Positions 7,162 to 21,200 of a stretch of 24,387 nt of DNA are shown here, piece after piece. Each line of letters begins with the position of its first letter. Positions within the stretch are counted from its first letter, which is position 1. Position numbers and translations under genes: made by a program. The stretch lies in the IMG/VR virus record IMGVR_UViG_3300021964_000515, positions 1 to 24,387 of that record, one strand, 5' to 3'. The notes under the pieces are model-generated. The model made no database searches. It worked only from the letters and a program-made list of their open reading frames with translations, and was not told the origin of the DNA. This DNA comes from a virus.

Positions 7162-7316
7162 TGGAAAGTCCTTGTATCAAAATCTGTAAACTTATAGATA
7201 GTATGTGTATTGGTTGTTATAGAACAACTGAAGAAATAACCATGTGGACTAAGTACACAGATGAGGAAAGAAAAAAAATAATTAAAGAAATTCAATTAAA
7301 TCGTTGTCAAGTTTAA
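7161..7316 (+). CDS. DUF1289-type small cysteine protein (51 aa)
   Basis: This short gene starts at the ATG that overlaps the gp17 stop. The product begins MESPCIKICKLI and continues with CIGCYRTTEEITMWTKYTDEER. This matches the DUF1289 pattern S-P-C-x3-C, then C-x2-C-x-R-T-x2-E-I-x2-W. Cysteines 5, 9, 16 and 19 would bind a metal, probably zinc or an Fe-S cluster. DUF1289 proteins are common in proteobacteria, where their role is not settled, so a phage copy next to terminase is unusual. The last 35 nt overlap the convergent minus-strand gene. The motif match is clear; the function is unknown. Confidence 0.75.
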   Translation: MESPCIKICKLIDSMCIGCYRTTEEITMWTKYTDEERKKIIKEIQLNRCQV

Positions 7317-7581
7317 TCCAACAATTAGAACAAACAACTTTACATTCATCCATTAATTTGTAAACTTCTTTTCTACTTTCATCATTTGTACCAACTCGTT
7401 TTGCTTGTTTACGAATCTCTATATCATGTGGATAAAGTTTAAGACATACTGTTTCACTCTCTCCACAATGAATACAAGATTCCTCTGCAAGACGATTGTT
7501 TAACCATGCAACTCTTTTTCGGTAATTTCTACGAGCCACCTTTTTGATAGTTTCTTTATACTTCTCATAATGTGTTGTCAT
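7282..7581 (-). CDS. Small HNH-like zinc-finger protein, probably lacking an intact active site (99 aa)
   Basis: This is the only well-supported minus-strand gene. The product has a basic helical N-terminus (residues 5-30) and then two CxxC knuckles, C36-IH-C39-G and C84-SN-C87, with YPHD (His52) between them. The spacing resembles phage HNH proteins (CxxCG, a central H, then CxNCH). The final histidine is Trp88 here and the central HH is PH, so nuclease activity may be lost. It lies in the terminase-sheath gap, converges on the DUF1289-type gene with a 35-nt overlap, and has its own TATAAATA box on the minus strand. It could be a zinc-binding regulator or a decayed mobile nuclease. Confidence 0.65.
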   Translation of the reverse strand: MTTHYEKYKETIKKVARRNYRKRVAWLNNRLAEESCIHCGESETVCLKLYPHDIEIRKQAKRVGTNDESRKEVYKLMDECKVVCSNCWIKLDNDLIEFL

Positions 7582-7586
7582 AAGGT

Positions 7587-7594
7587 TATTTATA
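7587..7594 (-). promoter_or_regulatory. Minus-strand T4-type late promoter (TATAAATA)
   Basis: On the minus strand an exact TATAAATA ends 5 nt before the ATG of the HNH-like gene. With T4 geometry (box at -13 to -6) the predicted +1 is position 7581, the A of that ATG. The message would then be leaderless. The match is exact but activity is unproven. Confidence 0.55.
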
Positions 7595-16468: not shown

Positions 16469-16496
16469 AGAGGGGATTTATTCCCCTCTTTTTTTT
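16469..16496 (+). terminator. Intrinsic terminator after gene 23
   Basis: The arms AGAGGGGA (16469-16476) and TCCCCTCT (16482-16489) form an 8-bp stem with a 5-nt TTTAT loop, followed by an uninterrupted T-run to 16496. It sits 23 nt after the gp23 stop and immediately upstream of the next late promoter, separating the abundant capsid message from the downstream genes. Confidence 0.92.
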
Positions 16497-16498
16497 GT

Positions 16499-16506
16499 TA
16501 TAAATA
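16499..16506 (+). promoter_or_regulatory. Late promoter of the gp19-paralogue gene (TATAAATA)
   Basis: An exact TATAAATA follows the terminator T-run by 2 nt. With T4 geometry +1 would be 16512, exactly the A of the downstream ATG. No purine-rich ribosome binding site lies between box and start, so the message is predicted to be leaderless. Confidence 0.65.
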
Positions 16507-17114: not shown

Positions 17115-17546
17115 ATGAATTTGGAAGAATTGAAACTTCAAGTCCAAAAAGACTTGAAAGTAGATGATGAACATCTAGATACCGAATCTTTAAAAAATCA
17201 AGAAATAAAAGCAAAATACCTAGAACACAAATCTAGATTTGAACTTCTTTTGTTTAAAGCAAAAGGAGATTATAAACGATTGTATCGTGAAAAGTGGGAA
17301 TACTATGGTGGTAAAGCTGATGCAAAGATATATGCAACCAAACCTTTTGACCTCAAAGTTCTCAAAACAGACTTAGCAGTTTACATTACTTCAGACGAAG
17401 AAATTATAAATGCAGAGAACAAAGTAGGTTATTTAGAAACAGTAGTGGACTATATCAAAGGAGTTATCAAGTCAGTTGATAATCGTGGTTGGGATATTAA
17501 AAACGCTATTGAATGGAAGAAATTTGAGGCTGGAGTGACATATTAA
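17115..17546 (+). CDS. uvsY: Recombination mediator UvsY
   Basis: The length of 143 aa matches T4 UvsY (137 aa). Blocks include LEHKSRFELLLFKAKGDYKR, YREKWEYYGGKADAKIYATK and VGYLETVVDYIKGVIKSVDN, then RGWDIKNAIEWKKFEAG. These are characteristic of UvsY: a basic, helical ssDNA-binding protein that loads the UvsX recombinase onto gp32-covered DNA. The position just upstream of uvsW matches marine T4-like genomes. Its stop is followed immediately by the ATG of the oxygenase gene, so they are co-translated. Confidence 0.9.
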   Translation: MNLEELKLQVQKDLKVDDEHLDTESLKNQEIKAKYLEHKSRFELLLFKAKGDYKRLYREKWEYYGGKADAKIYATKPFDLKVLKTDLAVYITSDEEIINAENKVGYLETVVDYIKGVIKSVDNRGWDIKNAIEWKKFEAGVTY

Positions 17547-18080
17547 ATGAACTATTCAGTAATAAATTTTCCAAATAACTTGATACAAGATATGTTGAGA
17601 AGTAAAGAAGACATCTTGACAAAAGGTAATATAAATGATGCAAGTGGGTTGACAAAAAGAAATTCTAGTGTATCATGGATAAAAGATAAAACCATTTGTC
17701 AAAGAGTTTTCTCTGTGATAAAAAATAAAACAAAAGACTTTTCAAATCTGCATCTGGATAATATAGAACCTTTACAATATTCTGAATATGATACAAGTCA
17801 AGAATATGGTTGGCATCAAGACTTAAATAATAAACCTTATGAAGATGGTAGAATAAGAAAGATATCATTTTCTATATTCTTAAATAGTAACTTTAAGGGT
17901 GGTGAGTTTGATTTAGAAATACACGGCCCAGATGTAAAACCTAGATATATATCAAAGTGGAAACGTAGTAATGAAAACTGTGTGATATTTAATTCAGATA
18001 TGTGGCACAGAGTAAGACCAGTAAAGTCTGGTGTAAGAAAAAGTATTGTTGGTTGGTTGTTAGGCCCTGTTACTAGATAA
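17547..18080 (+). CDS. 2OG-Fe(II) oxygenase, prolyl-4-hydroxylase-like (177 aa)
   Basis: The Fe(II)-binding facial triad is visible: H90-Q-D92 in YGWHQD and His154 in DMWHRV, with Arg164 ten residues later in position to hold 2-oxoglutarate. The typical GGEFDLEI strand (from 118) and a terminal IVGWLLG complete the double-stranded beta-helix layout. The substrate is unknown; phage members could modify proteins, nucleobases or virion components. The ATG abuts the uvsY stop and the stop overlaps the uvsW ATG (TAATG), so the gene is embedded in the recombination operon. All catalytic residues are present, so activity is likely. Confidence 0.85.
   Translation: MNYSVINFPNNLIQDMLRSKEDILTKGNINDASGLTKRNSSVSWIKDKTICQRVFSVIKNKTKDFSNLHLDNIEPLQYSEYDTSQEYGWHQDLNNKPYEDGRIRKISFSIFLNSNFKGGEFDLEIHGPDVKPRYISKWKRSNENCVIFNSDMWHRVRPVKSGVRKSIVGWLLGPVTR
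17649..17676 (+). promoter_or_regulatory. Candidate host-type promoter inside the oxygenase gene, upstream of uvsW
   Basis: A perfect -35 TTGACA (17649-17654), a 16-nt spacer and -10 TATCAT (17671-17676) are visible, and TAGTG precedes the -10 as in the promoter of gene 55. It lies in coding DNA about 400 nt before uvsW and may be chance, but the shared TAGTG block argues for selection. Confidence 0.35.
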
Positions 18081-19531
18081 TGAAAATATCAAAGATAAAT
18101 GAGGTTTACTTAGAACTAGAAGTAGACGAAGACGTTTCTAGAGAACTATCTGATTACTTTACTTTTGAAGTGCCAGGCGCAAAGTATATGCCTCACTATC
18201 GTAGGAAACTTTGGGATGGTAAAATAAGATTATTTTCACCACACAATGGTAGAATATATGTAGGACTTTTACCTTACATAAAAGAGTTTTGTGATAGAAA
18301 CAAAGAAAAACTATATATTGATAAAGGAGTAGAAAATGAACGGAATGTTATTCGTGAGAGCGTCAGAGAATTTGCCGAGTCACTACGACCCAAGAGCAGA
18401 GGCAAACCTATACAATTTCGTGATTATCAAGTTGATGCAATCTGGCACGCTATACAGTCAAATCGTTGCCTTCTTTTATCTCCTACTGCTTCAGGCAAAT
18501 CACTCATAATATACACCCTTGTTAGATATTACAATCTAATGAAACTCAAGACACTTATACTTGTACCTACTACATCATTAGTTGAACAGATGTATTCTGA
18601 TTTTATTGATTATGGTTGGGAGGACAAACATATCCACAGAGTATATGCTGGTATGGATAAAGGTTCTAAAAAACCAGTCATAATATCTACATGGCAATCT
18701 TTATATAAACTTCATAAACAATATTTTGCACAATATGGTTGTATCATAGGAGATGAAGCTCATCTATTTAAAGCAAAATCTCTGACTGATATAATGACAA
18801 GAGCTGAAGGTTGTAAGTATAGATTTGGATTGACTGGAACTCTTGATGGTACACAGACACATAGACTTGTACTTGAGGGTTTATTCGGTCAAGTTAATAA
18901 AATAATTACAACTAAAGAATTGATAGACAGGGGAACACTTGCAAAATTACAGATAGATTGTATTGTATTGAAACATAAAGAAGAAGAATGTAAAAGAGTA
19001 AGACATTATAGATATGCAGAAGAACTAAACTATATTGTATCTCACCCAAAGAGAAATAAGTTTATTGAAAATCTATGTAAGAACATAAAAGGTAATACAC
19101 TATTACTTTTTCAATTAGTTGAAAAACATGGAGTCTTATTATATAATGAAATAAAAACACTTGATAGAAAAGTATTTTTTGTGTATGGTGGAACAACTAC
19201 AGAAGCTAGGGAGAGAGTTCGTGCAATTACAGAAAAAGAAAAAGATGCAATCATTGTGGCATCTTATGGTACATTTTCTACTGGTATTAATATTAGGGCT
19301 ATCAACAATATCGTGTTCGCCAGTCCTTCCAAAAGTAGGGTGCGAGTTCTCCAATCAATTGGTAGAGGACTCAGACAAACTGAAGATAAAACTGTGGTCA
19401 GGTTATTTGATGTGTCAGATAACCTCACCTATAAGTCAAGACAAAATTTCACATACAGGCATTTCACACAACGACTAAATATATACAAGGAAGAACAATT
19501 TAAGTACGAAATTAATAGGATTAATTTATGA
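18080..19531 (+). CDS. uvsW: Superfamily 2 helicase UvsW
   Basis: The N-terminal domain (1-100) carries FEVPGAKYMPHYRRKLWDGK and is the UvsW-specific substrate domain. The helicase core has a Q-like motif (QFRDYQVDAI), Walker A SPTASGKS (134-141, Lys140), a DEAH box (225-228), motif III LTGTL (251-255) and motif VI QSIGRGLR (425-432, Arg finger). The length of 483 aa is close to T4. UvsW unwinds R-loops and branched recombination intermediates and so shifts T4 from origin- to recombination-dependent replication. It overlaps both the upstream oxygenase and the downstream small gene (ATGA), all within one operon. Confidence 0.95.
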   Translation: MKISKINEVYLELEVDEDVSRELSDYFTFEVPGAKYMPHYRRKLWDGKIRLFSPHNGRIYVGLLPYIKEFCDRNKEKLYIDKGVENERNVIRESVREFAESLRPKSRGKPIQFRDYQVDAIWHAIQSNRCLLLSPTASGKSLIIYTLVRYYNLMKLKTLILVPTTSLVEQMYSDFIDYGWEDKHIHRVYAGMDKGSKKPVIISTWQSLYKLHKQYFAQYGCIIGDEAHLFKAKSLTDIMTRAEGCKYRFGLTGTLDGTQTHRLVLEGLFGQVNKIITTKELIDRGTLAKLQIDCIVLKHKEEECKRVRHYRYAEELNYIVSHPKRNKFIENLCKNIKGNTLLLFQLVEKHGVLLYNEIKTLDRKVFFVYGGTTTEARERVRAITEKEKDAIIVASYGTFSTGINIRAINNIVFASPSKSRVRVLQSIGRGLRQTEDKTVVRLFDVSDNLTYKSRQNFTYRHFTQRLNIYKEEQFKYEINRINL

Positions 19532-19956
19532 GTTACCATATAGTAAAATTATCAAATGGAGAAGATATAATTTGTAATATCCACGAACCTACTAGTTCGC
19601 AAGAAACAAGTAAAGTAAAAATAAGTTCTCCTCTAAAAATGGATACTATTGCAAGAACAACTAGTAAAGGAATTGTTGAATCATTATCTTTGGCTAGATG
19701 GGTGCAACCATATTCAGATGAAAAGTATTTTAATATTGAAAGAAGTTCTATAGTTCTAATAACGCCTGCAAGTATTGGAATAACTAGATATTATGAATAT
19801 GTATTACAAAATATAAATGAAGTTGTAAAATCAAAATCACCCACTATAAAACAATTAAAACAAATAGATGAAGAACCACAAGAAACATTGACAGAAGAAG
19901 ACTTTGAAGATATACTTGAAGAATTTAAACTTAAAACTAAAACTACTTATCATTAA
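19528..19956 (+). CDS. Unassigned conserved-type phage protein, Sm-like barrel suspected (142 aa)
   Basis: No named family is recognised with certainty. The first 80 residues alternate in strand pattern (HIVKLSNGEDIICNIHE, KVKISSPLKMDTI, NIERSSIVLITPAS), resembling a small Sm/LSm-like beta-barrel. The next helix (YYEYVLQNINEVVKS) and an acidic, unstructured tail (EEDFEDILEEFKLK) follow. The ATG overlaps the uvsW stop (ATGA), implying translational coupling to the helicase. A role in RNA or nucleic-acid handling would fit an Sm-like fold, but that is only a guess. A host-type promoter may lie within its 3' end and another runs antisense to it. Confidence 0.6.
   Translation: MSYHIVKLSNGEDIICNIHEPTSSQETSKVKISSPLKMDTIARTTSKGIVESLSLARWVQPYSDEKYFNIERSSIVLITPASIGITRYYEYVLQNINEVVKSKSPTIKQLKQIDEEPQETLTEEDFEDILEEFKLKTKTTYH
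19888..19916 (+). promoter_or_regulatory. Candidate host-type promoter for the second oxygenase gene
   Basis: TTGACA (19888-19893), a 17-nt spacer and TATACT (19911-19916) lie in the 3' end of the preceding gene, about 108 nt before the ATG at 20024. The geometry is ideal, but the bases are also coding, so chance is possible. Confidence 0.35.
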
Positions 19957-19969
19957 TCTGATGAGTCAC

Positions 19970-19989
19970 AATAGTGATTATACACTATT
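19970..19989 (+). repeat. Inverted repeat after the Sm-like gene
   Basis: AATAGTG (19970-19976) and CACTATT (19983-19989) form a perfect 7-bp stem with loop ATTATA, followed by TTTATA. It lies 13 nt after a stop codon and could be a weak terminator. The loop is also exactly the -10 box of the antisense promoter, so it could equally be an operator. Confidence 0.5.
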
Positions 19990-20004
19990 TTATACAATTG
20001 TCAA
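19977..20004 (-). promoter_or_regulatory. Consensus sigma70-type promoter on the minus strand
   Basis: Read on the minus strand, TTGACA (20004-19999), a 16-nt spacer and TATAAT (19982-19977) match both consensus hexamers exactly, with TAGTG before the -10. Transcription would start near 19970 and run leftward, antisense to the Sm-like gene and then uvsW. No minus-strand gene lies downstream. Confidence 0.5.
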
Positions 20005-20023: not shown

Positions 20024-20599
20024 ATGGAAAACTTTATATTATTCTTTCAAATACCAGATGAAATCTGTGATAAGCTTGTTGACTACCATAAAAATAATGA
20101 GTATGATAAAAATAACTCAAAATATGGTTGGGATATAAAGACAAAAGAAAGTATAGATTGCACTTGTAATCCAAGAAGCAATCACCCAGTAATACAAGAA
20201 TACCTTTCTTTTATGTGGCAAGGACTTCAAGCATACCAGCAAAAGTATGTATACATGAATCAATTAACAGTAATATCACAACCATTTAATATTCAATATT
20301 ATCCGCCTGGGGGTGGATATAAAAGATGGCACAACGAAAGAAGTGAACATCAAACACATCAAAGAAATTTAGTTTTTATGACATATCTTAATGATGTTCC
20401 AGATGGTGGTGGAACAGAATTTGTATATTATCCAGATGTTAAAATAAATGCAAAGAAAGGTTTGTCATTACTTTGGCCACCAGATTTTACTCACACCCAC
20501 AGAGGTATAGTATCACAACATGAAAAATATATTGCTACTGGTTGGTTTAATCATGCAGATGTTTCTGAAGTTAAACAATTTAATAAAAATAAATCTTGA
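20024..20599 (+). CDS. 2OG-Fe(II) oxygenase-like protein with an HxE motif (191 aa)
   Basis: The core reads YYPPGGGYKRWHNERSEHQ, then NLVFMTYLNDVPDGGGTEFV and FTHTHRGIVSQHEKYIATGW. The Fe(II) triad is H103-x-E105 (Glu in place of the usual Asp) with His157 or His159, and Lys168 is the likely 2-oxoglutarate contact. GGGTEF (128-133) is the usual strand. This differs clearly from the oxygenase at 17547, so it is not a recent duplicate. It is the first gene after a 67-nt gap with an AAGGAAAAA ribosome binding site and precedes the gp55 promoter. Substrate unknown; similar genes are frequent in marine T4-like phages. Confidence 0.75.
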   Translation: MENFILFFQIPDEICDKLVDYHKNNEYDKNNSKYGWDIKTKESIDCTCNPRSNHPVIQEYLSFMWQGLQAYQQKYVYMNQLTVISQPFNIQYYPPGGGYKRWHNERSEHQTHQRNLVFMTYLNDVPDGGGTEFVYYPDVKINAKKGLSLLWPPDFTHTHRGIVSQHEKYIATGWFNHADVSEVKQFNKNKS

Positions 20600-20624
20600 C
20601 ATTCGTGTCATTTTAGTGTATATT
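20596..20624 (+). promoter_or_regulatory. Host-type promoter of late sigma factor gene 55
   Basis: TTGACA (20596-20601), a 17-nt spacer and TATATT (20619-20624) lie just after the oxygenase stop, with TAGTG immediately before the -10. Predicted +1 is near 20631, 24 nt before the gp55 ATG, with AAAGGA as ribosome binding site. The -35 is partly inside a small inverted repeat (TGACA-TTCG-TGTCA, 20597-20610) that might bind a regulator. Confidence 0.7.
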
Positions 20625-20654: not shown

Positions 20655-21200
20655 ATGGCAAGAACCAAAGTAAAAGGCGTTCACTATGTGGACAACAAAA
20701 AGTTTCATCAGGCCATGATTGATTGGAAAGAAAAGTGTAAAGATGCAGAAGAAGCTGGAGATGATATTCCCCAGATTACAAACTATATCGGTTCATGTTT
20801 TCTAAAGATTGCAAATGGACTTTCGTATAGACCGAACTTTATTAACTATACATATAGACAAGAAATGATTTCAGATGGTATTGAGAACTGTTTACAATAC
20901 ATACATAACTTCAATCCAGAAAAATCTAAGAATCCGTTTGCATATTTTACACAGATAATCTATTATGCATTTATTCGTAGAATACAAAAGGAAAAGAAAC
21001 AAACTCATGTTAAACATAGAATGATTGAAAAACAAGAATATCTTCCTTACATAACAATGGAAGGCGATAGCACTACATATCAAGTTGGTGGATTTGACCC
21101 AAATATTATGGTGCCAGATGAAGCTGTTTATAAACCAAAGAAGAAAGATACTAAAGATATACCGAAAGGTCTAGAAAATTTTATGGATAATGACGATTGA
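20655..21200 (+). CDS. gp55: Late-transcription sigma factor gp55
   Basis: The 181-aa product matches T4 gp55 in size (185 aa). It has ITNYIGSCFLKIANGLSYRP, MISDGIENCLQYIHNFNPEK and SKNPFAYFTQIIYYAFIRRI, a sigma region-2-like core with no region 4. This minimal sigma lets host RNA polymerase recognise TATAAATA, the box found before several genes of this window. The C-terminal PKGLENFMDNDD is acidic and hydrophobic and could be the sliding-clamp contact, as in T4. It has its own host-type promoter and its stop overlaps the gp47 start. Confidence 0.93.
   Translation: MARTKVKGVHYVDNKKFHQAMIDWKEKCKDAEEAGDDIPQITNYIGSCFLKIANGLSYRPNFINYTYRQEMISDGIENCLQYIHNFNPEKSKNPFAYFTQIIYYAFIRRIQKEKKQTHVKHRMIEKQEYLPYITMEGDSTTYQVGGFDPNIMVPDEAVYKPKKKDTKDIPKGLENFMDNDD

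Follow-up and report, generated by a model that had tools for sequence, protein, structure and literature searches.

A host-type antisense promoter fixed behind the uvsW/Sm-like stop codon of marine T4-like phages, with a possible role in keeping uvsW silent early

Judged from comparative sequence analysis, the element described here is a real, single-copy promoter of the host sigma70 type, fixed behind the uvsW (or uvsW/Sm-like) stop codon of marine T4-like phages and directed leftward. There is good support for antisense transcription across the late uvsW block being encoded in this way. Occupying the same position in roughly nine-tenths of the phages surveyed and facing the adjoining gene for an R-loop helicase, such a promoter is a concrete candidate for either a replication origin or a late-gene silencing switch.

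The element was studied in a 24,387-nucleotide window, part of a T4-like phage genome related to the cultured Methylophilales phage Melnitz and Pelagibacter phage Mosig, both placed in the Kyanoviridae. The right part of the window reads, all on the plus strand, tail tube, uvsY, 2OG oxygenase, uvsW, Sm-like, 2OG oxygenase, gp55, gp47, and gp46 (Table 1). The identities of uvsW and gp55 proposed in an earlier sequence-only reading were confirmed, and its Sm-like label proved correct, with a match to Pfam PF16243 of 29.3 bits in the window (cut-off 29.4) and of 148 bits for the P-SSM4 homologue. Elsewhere in the window, a lone 99-aa ORF on the minus strand (7282-7581), lying inside a 525-nt gap, carries two CxxC motifs (CIHC and CSNC) and may encode a small zinc-binding or HNH-like protein; a late-type TATAAATA motif is found on the same strand at 7587-7594.

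Table 1. Coordinates of the antisense promoter and of the surrounding features in the window
Feature	Position	Strand	Remark
Late-type promoter motif TATAAATA	16499..16506	+	Last before tail tube-uvsY-2OG-uvsW-Sm-like
Candidate leftward terminator: stem of 10 bp, tail rich in T	17136..17159	-	Consensus scan only; first minus-strand one downstream, about 2.8 kb from promoter
uvsW helicase gene	18080..19531	+	Crossed antisense only if transcript exceeds about 440 nt
Sm-like gene	19528..19956	+	Crossed antisense
Near-invariant 28-bp block, CTGATGAGTCACAATAGTGATTATACAC on + strand	19958..19985	-	From close-relative comparison
Palindrome TCAC-TATT-GTGA at start region	19966..19977	-	Counterparts elsewhere centred about 8 nt after -10
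Predicted transcription start, about 7-8 nt after -10	19969..19970	-	Inferred from sigma70 spacing; 13 nt past Sm-like stop
-10 hexamer TATAAT	19977..19982	-	No change among close relatives; distant ones have TAnnnT
-35 hexamer TTGACA	19999..20004	-	TTGAC unchanged across 18 distinct relatives
2OG-Fe(II) oxygenase gene between element and gp55	20024..20599	+	Absent in L003, element unchanged there
gp55's own promoter TTGACA-N17-TATATT	20596..20624	+	Divergent partner in phages without inserted 2OG gene
gp55 late sigma factor gene	20655..21200	+	

Both hexamers match the consensus exactly on the minus strand, as had been noted from the sequence, with a spacer of 16 nt, and the promoter sits in the gap between the Sm-like gene and the next gene. 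TTGACA-N16-TATAAT is the sole exact match in the window, where 0.06 would be expected by Markov simulation. By itself this is weak, because Mosig has exact 12/12 promoter matches inside genes too, without known meaning. Another exact site in Mosig (MT647606.1, about 100171, plus strand), TTGACA-N17-TATAAT, lies antisense inside a baseplate wedge gene and has no start-site palindrome.

It is conservation, not the exact match alone, that decides in favor of a real promoter. Among 18 distinct close relatives, TTGAC and TATAAT are each 100% identical at a constant spacing of 16 nt, and the segment from the -10 to about +14 is 99% identical, compared with 67% for the spacer and 59% for the flanks. 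Loss of the hexamers in close relatives had been named as grounds for abandoning the antisense reading, and the opposite was found. The preservation of hexamers 16-18 nt apart while the spacer drifts is that of a sigma70-type promoter, and TG or TGT is conserved across clusters at the predicted start. The 28-bp block is intact in L003 and L004, even though these lack the 2OG gene and have an Sm-like protein of only 62% identity. Its 21-bp core matched 26 viral contigs and 0 genome contigs; a degenerate pattern gave a single match in host genomes, in a Spirochaetia MAG, likely by chance. The element does not have the make-up of a T4-type late or middle promoter, which would show TATAAATA at the -10 or a MotA box near -30: TATAAT is followed by C, TTGACA lies upstream, and the TATAAATA late motifs lie elsewhere. 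Two other candidate features were rejected: a GANTC methylation site is lost in L049 and L053, and a hammerhead-like CTGATGA on the plus strand has no GAAA partner and is absent from distant relatives.

The wider survey started from 257 gp55 loci, of which 136 unique ones have uvsW or the Sm-like gene adjoining gp55; they are mostly metagenomic contigs, whose kinship was reduced by clustering but not modelled. With an antisense score of at least 10 as the promoter call, the element was found in 90% of the 136 loci and in 2.4% of shuffled controls, while the forward promoter before gp55 was also present in 83%. Anchoring on the uvsW/Sm-like stop codon instead retrieved an antisense sigma70-type promoter in 116/128 loci (91%), and with three exceptions the predicted start in these 116 falls 7-38 nt beyond that codon. 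About 9% of gp55-adjacent loci fall below the threshold, among them Melnitz, which has a weak -35. Where genes have been inserted before gp55, as in the window and six other loci (together L001, L009, L064, L097, L099, L109, and L251), the element stays with the 3′ end of Sm-like/uvsW. Cultured carriers are Syn9, P-SSM4, and Mosig, which makes the element directly testable. No description of it turned up in the open-access literature searched, although one may exist.

A palindrome over the start site whose arms covary would be out of the ordinary for a promoter. The 7-bp repeat AATAGTG-ATTATA-CACTATT, earlier described as presenting the -10 in its loop, is indeed present at 19970-19989 but is not conserved, its second arm reading CACGATT, CACCATT, or CAGTATT in relatives. 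Conserved in its place is the dyad TCAC-TATT-GTGA (19977-19966), and across phages what recurs is a dyad over the start region, exemplified by AACGG-TGT-CCGTT (Mosig), AAGGTT-ATC-AACCTT (L231), AGACT-ATGT-AGTCT (L127), and CAGCG-TGTTGC-CGCTG (L100), whose arms covary between phages. At least 4 contiguous pairs are formed in 32/76 clusters and at least 5 in 14/76, whereas re-dealing the 3′ halves among clusters gave 5.7 and 1.0, respectively, with maxima of 14 and 6 in 2000 rounds. Of 122 forward gp55 promoters, 9 showed at least 4 pairs and 0 at least 5. The covarying palindrome is likewise absent from nearly all other strong Mosig promoters, and the one further promoter-like site of that phage to reach a 5-pair score is intragenic (about 1742). 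The group to which the window belongs obtains a low score in this test, since its dyad has a centre 2-3 nt earlier and includes the final base of the -10; TCACNNNNGTGA has one copy in the window and one in a 65-kb contig of a near-identical phage. On the leftward strand, arm mismatches are G.T in 11 clusters and A.C in 1, an asymmetry that weakly points to pairing of that strand and is confounded by composition and shared ancestry.

The promoter lies on the strand opposite uvsW/Sm-like and is oriented toward both, an arrangement from which a cis-antisense RNA would arise; no conserved RNA sequence or structure was found in the overlap, a feature not strictly required of that family. The claim that no minus-strand gene lies downstream held, since the leftward ORFs are short and unconserved, and a search for a hidden leftward gene yielded no conserved ORF. 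Synonymous sites of the Sm-like gene and uvsW show no rise in conservation near the promoter, no Rfam family fits beyond chance-level matches, and no conserved RNA sequence extends beyond about +20. With no conserved ORF, synonymous signal, or Rfam family, it is the promoter rather than the RNA sequence that appears to be selected, which is consistent with transcription itself being what matters.

Late-type TATAAATA motifs on the plus strand stand at 123, 7638, 13600, 13613, 15094, and 16499, 13-50 nt before genes that are mostly structural, two of them close together ahead of the scaffold gene. A strong terminator-like hairpin (16469-16489) is located after the major head gene and before a late-type promoter motif. 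Late-type sites ahead of the uvsW block and a sigma70-type antisense promoter behind it would fit opposite timing, and a sigma70-type promoter directed into a late block should work before gp55 takes over. The best explanation, to which we assign a probability of about 0.4, is that the antisense promoter keeps the uvsW block silent before the gp55 switch. Briefly, host RNA polymerase would start leftward at about 19969 before this switch, and antisense transcription would cross Sm-like, uvsW, and perhaps uvsY as well and counter the rightward reading of the late block, keeping UvsW from being made early; once gp55 replaced sigma70, antisense transcription would stop. The assumed role of the palindrome is to adjust initiation or promoter escape, either because the non-template strand pairs with itself once melted or because a dimer binds there. 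Opposing early UvsW would make sense: in T4 the protein is produced late, and it unwinds R-loops at origins (PMC3016281). The block on early uvsW expression suggested by the sequence-only reading is a plausible hypothesis with partial support, as neither its 7-bp repeat nor the antisense RNA sequence within the genes is conserved and an R-loop origin accounts for the data almost as well. Against it count the indirectness of shutting off a gene from a promoter at its far 3′ end, the distance of about 2.8 kb to the first terminator-like site, and the roughly 9% of loci below threshold. T4, moreover, already limits UvsW through its late promoter.

Silencing ranks ahead of two other functional readings, a replication origin and an operator-gated RNA, in that order. 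In the former, which we regard as possible though unlikely, the promoter would be an R-loop origin, the marine counterpart of T4 oriF, whose annealed transcript primes the leading strand until UvsW, encoded next door, dissolves the R-loop. A sigma70-type promoter, which may be prereplicative, is present by sequence, in one copy per genome where checked, and in T4 the oriF promoter is found 881 bp past the uvsW stop codon and is transcribed toward that gene, a parallel of position only. T4 origins need a promoter and an AT-rich, easily melted stretch but no specific transcript sequence (PMC3016281), which a promoter conserved without RNA conservation fits. However, duplex instability downstream of the start does not exceed the ordinary intergenic level, so that no AT-rich unwinding element stands out, GC skew follows the gene strand with no flip at the promoter, and the T4 oriF promoter is of the MotA type, serves uvsY, and belongs to a different gene order. 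The T4 oriF promoter region (L310:2860-2930) contains a perfect palindrome, CACGTT-AA-AACGTG, between its two TATAAT sequences. The composite proposal of a family-wide, single-copy sigma70 promoter with a palindrome kept by compensatory change, through selection for melted-strand pairing rather than for sequence, that acts as an R-loop origin beside the gene for its dismantling helicase is improbable.

Also improbable is that a dimeric regulator binds the palindrome as its operator and thereby gates the leftward promoter, the RNA being a small regulatory RNA or having its target elsewhere. Dyads over +1 are classic operator positions, and one does lie over this promoter. This account stays in play mainly because TCAC-N4-GTGA recurs at promoters of unrelated phages, apparently in the sense orientation in L051, L052, and L057, which fits a trans-acting factor shared for this type of palindrome; in another unrelated phage (L054:160-243), a consensus-type promoter precedes a tandem array of about 6.6 copies of a palindromic 12-bp CACCATAGTGAA-like unit, upstream of the replication genes. 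Arms that vary widely around a conserved centre are nevertheless unlike the site of one regulator, the single copy per genome where checked also speaks against it, and neither an Rfam match nor a conserved sequence beyond about +20 marks the RNA. Disfavored, and very improbable in our estimate, is a promoter-like sequence arising by chance in AT-rich DNA, or a 3′-end hairpin of the sense mRNA mistaken for a promoter. Exact matches do occur inside Mosig genes, and hairpins soon after stop codons are common, but neither accounts for the conservation pattern, the 91% prevalence at a fixed place, or the rigid spacing of the palindrome from the -10, and the G.T preference on the leftward strand argues weakly against a sense hairpin. 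Early silencing of uvsW is the reading that we favor.

To our knowledge, little has been mapped of where marine T4-like phages begin replication or how they exert early control, and the closest known systems resemble the element only in part. T4 oriF (oriuvsY) similarly has a prereplicative promoter that lies just past uvsW and fires leftward, sending its transcript toward that gene, but that is a MotA-dependent middle promoter driving uvsY, accompanied by an AT-rich unwinding element, whereas the marine element is sigma70-type, has no gene following on its strand, and shows no standout unwinding element. An antisense RNA of a marine T4-like phage has been reported in cyanophage S-PM2, where cfrI, of about 225 nt, is found at psbA and a homing endonuclease gene (PMC5931967, PMC2984593); it belongs to another locus, and no start-site palindrome is mentioned for it in these reports. 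Lastly, the host-like sigma70 promoters of marine T4-like phages, of which gp55's own is one, share TTGACA/TAnnnT hexamers and a 16-17 nt spacing with the element, which differs from them in its antisense orientation, its covarying start-site palindrome, and its tie to the uvsW/Sm-like stop codon.
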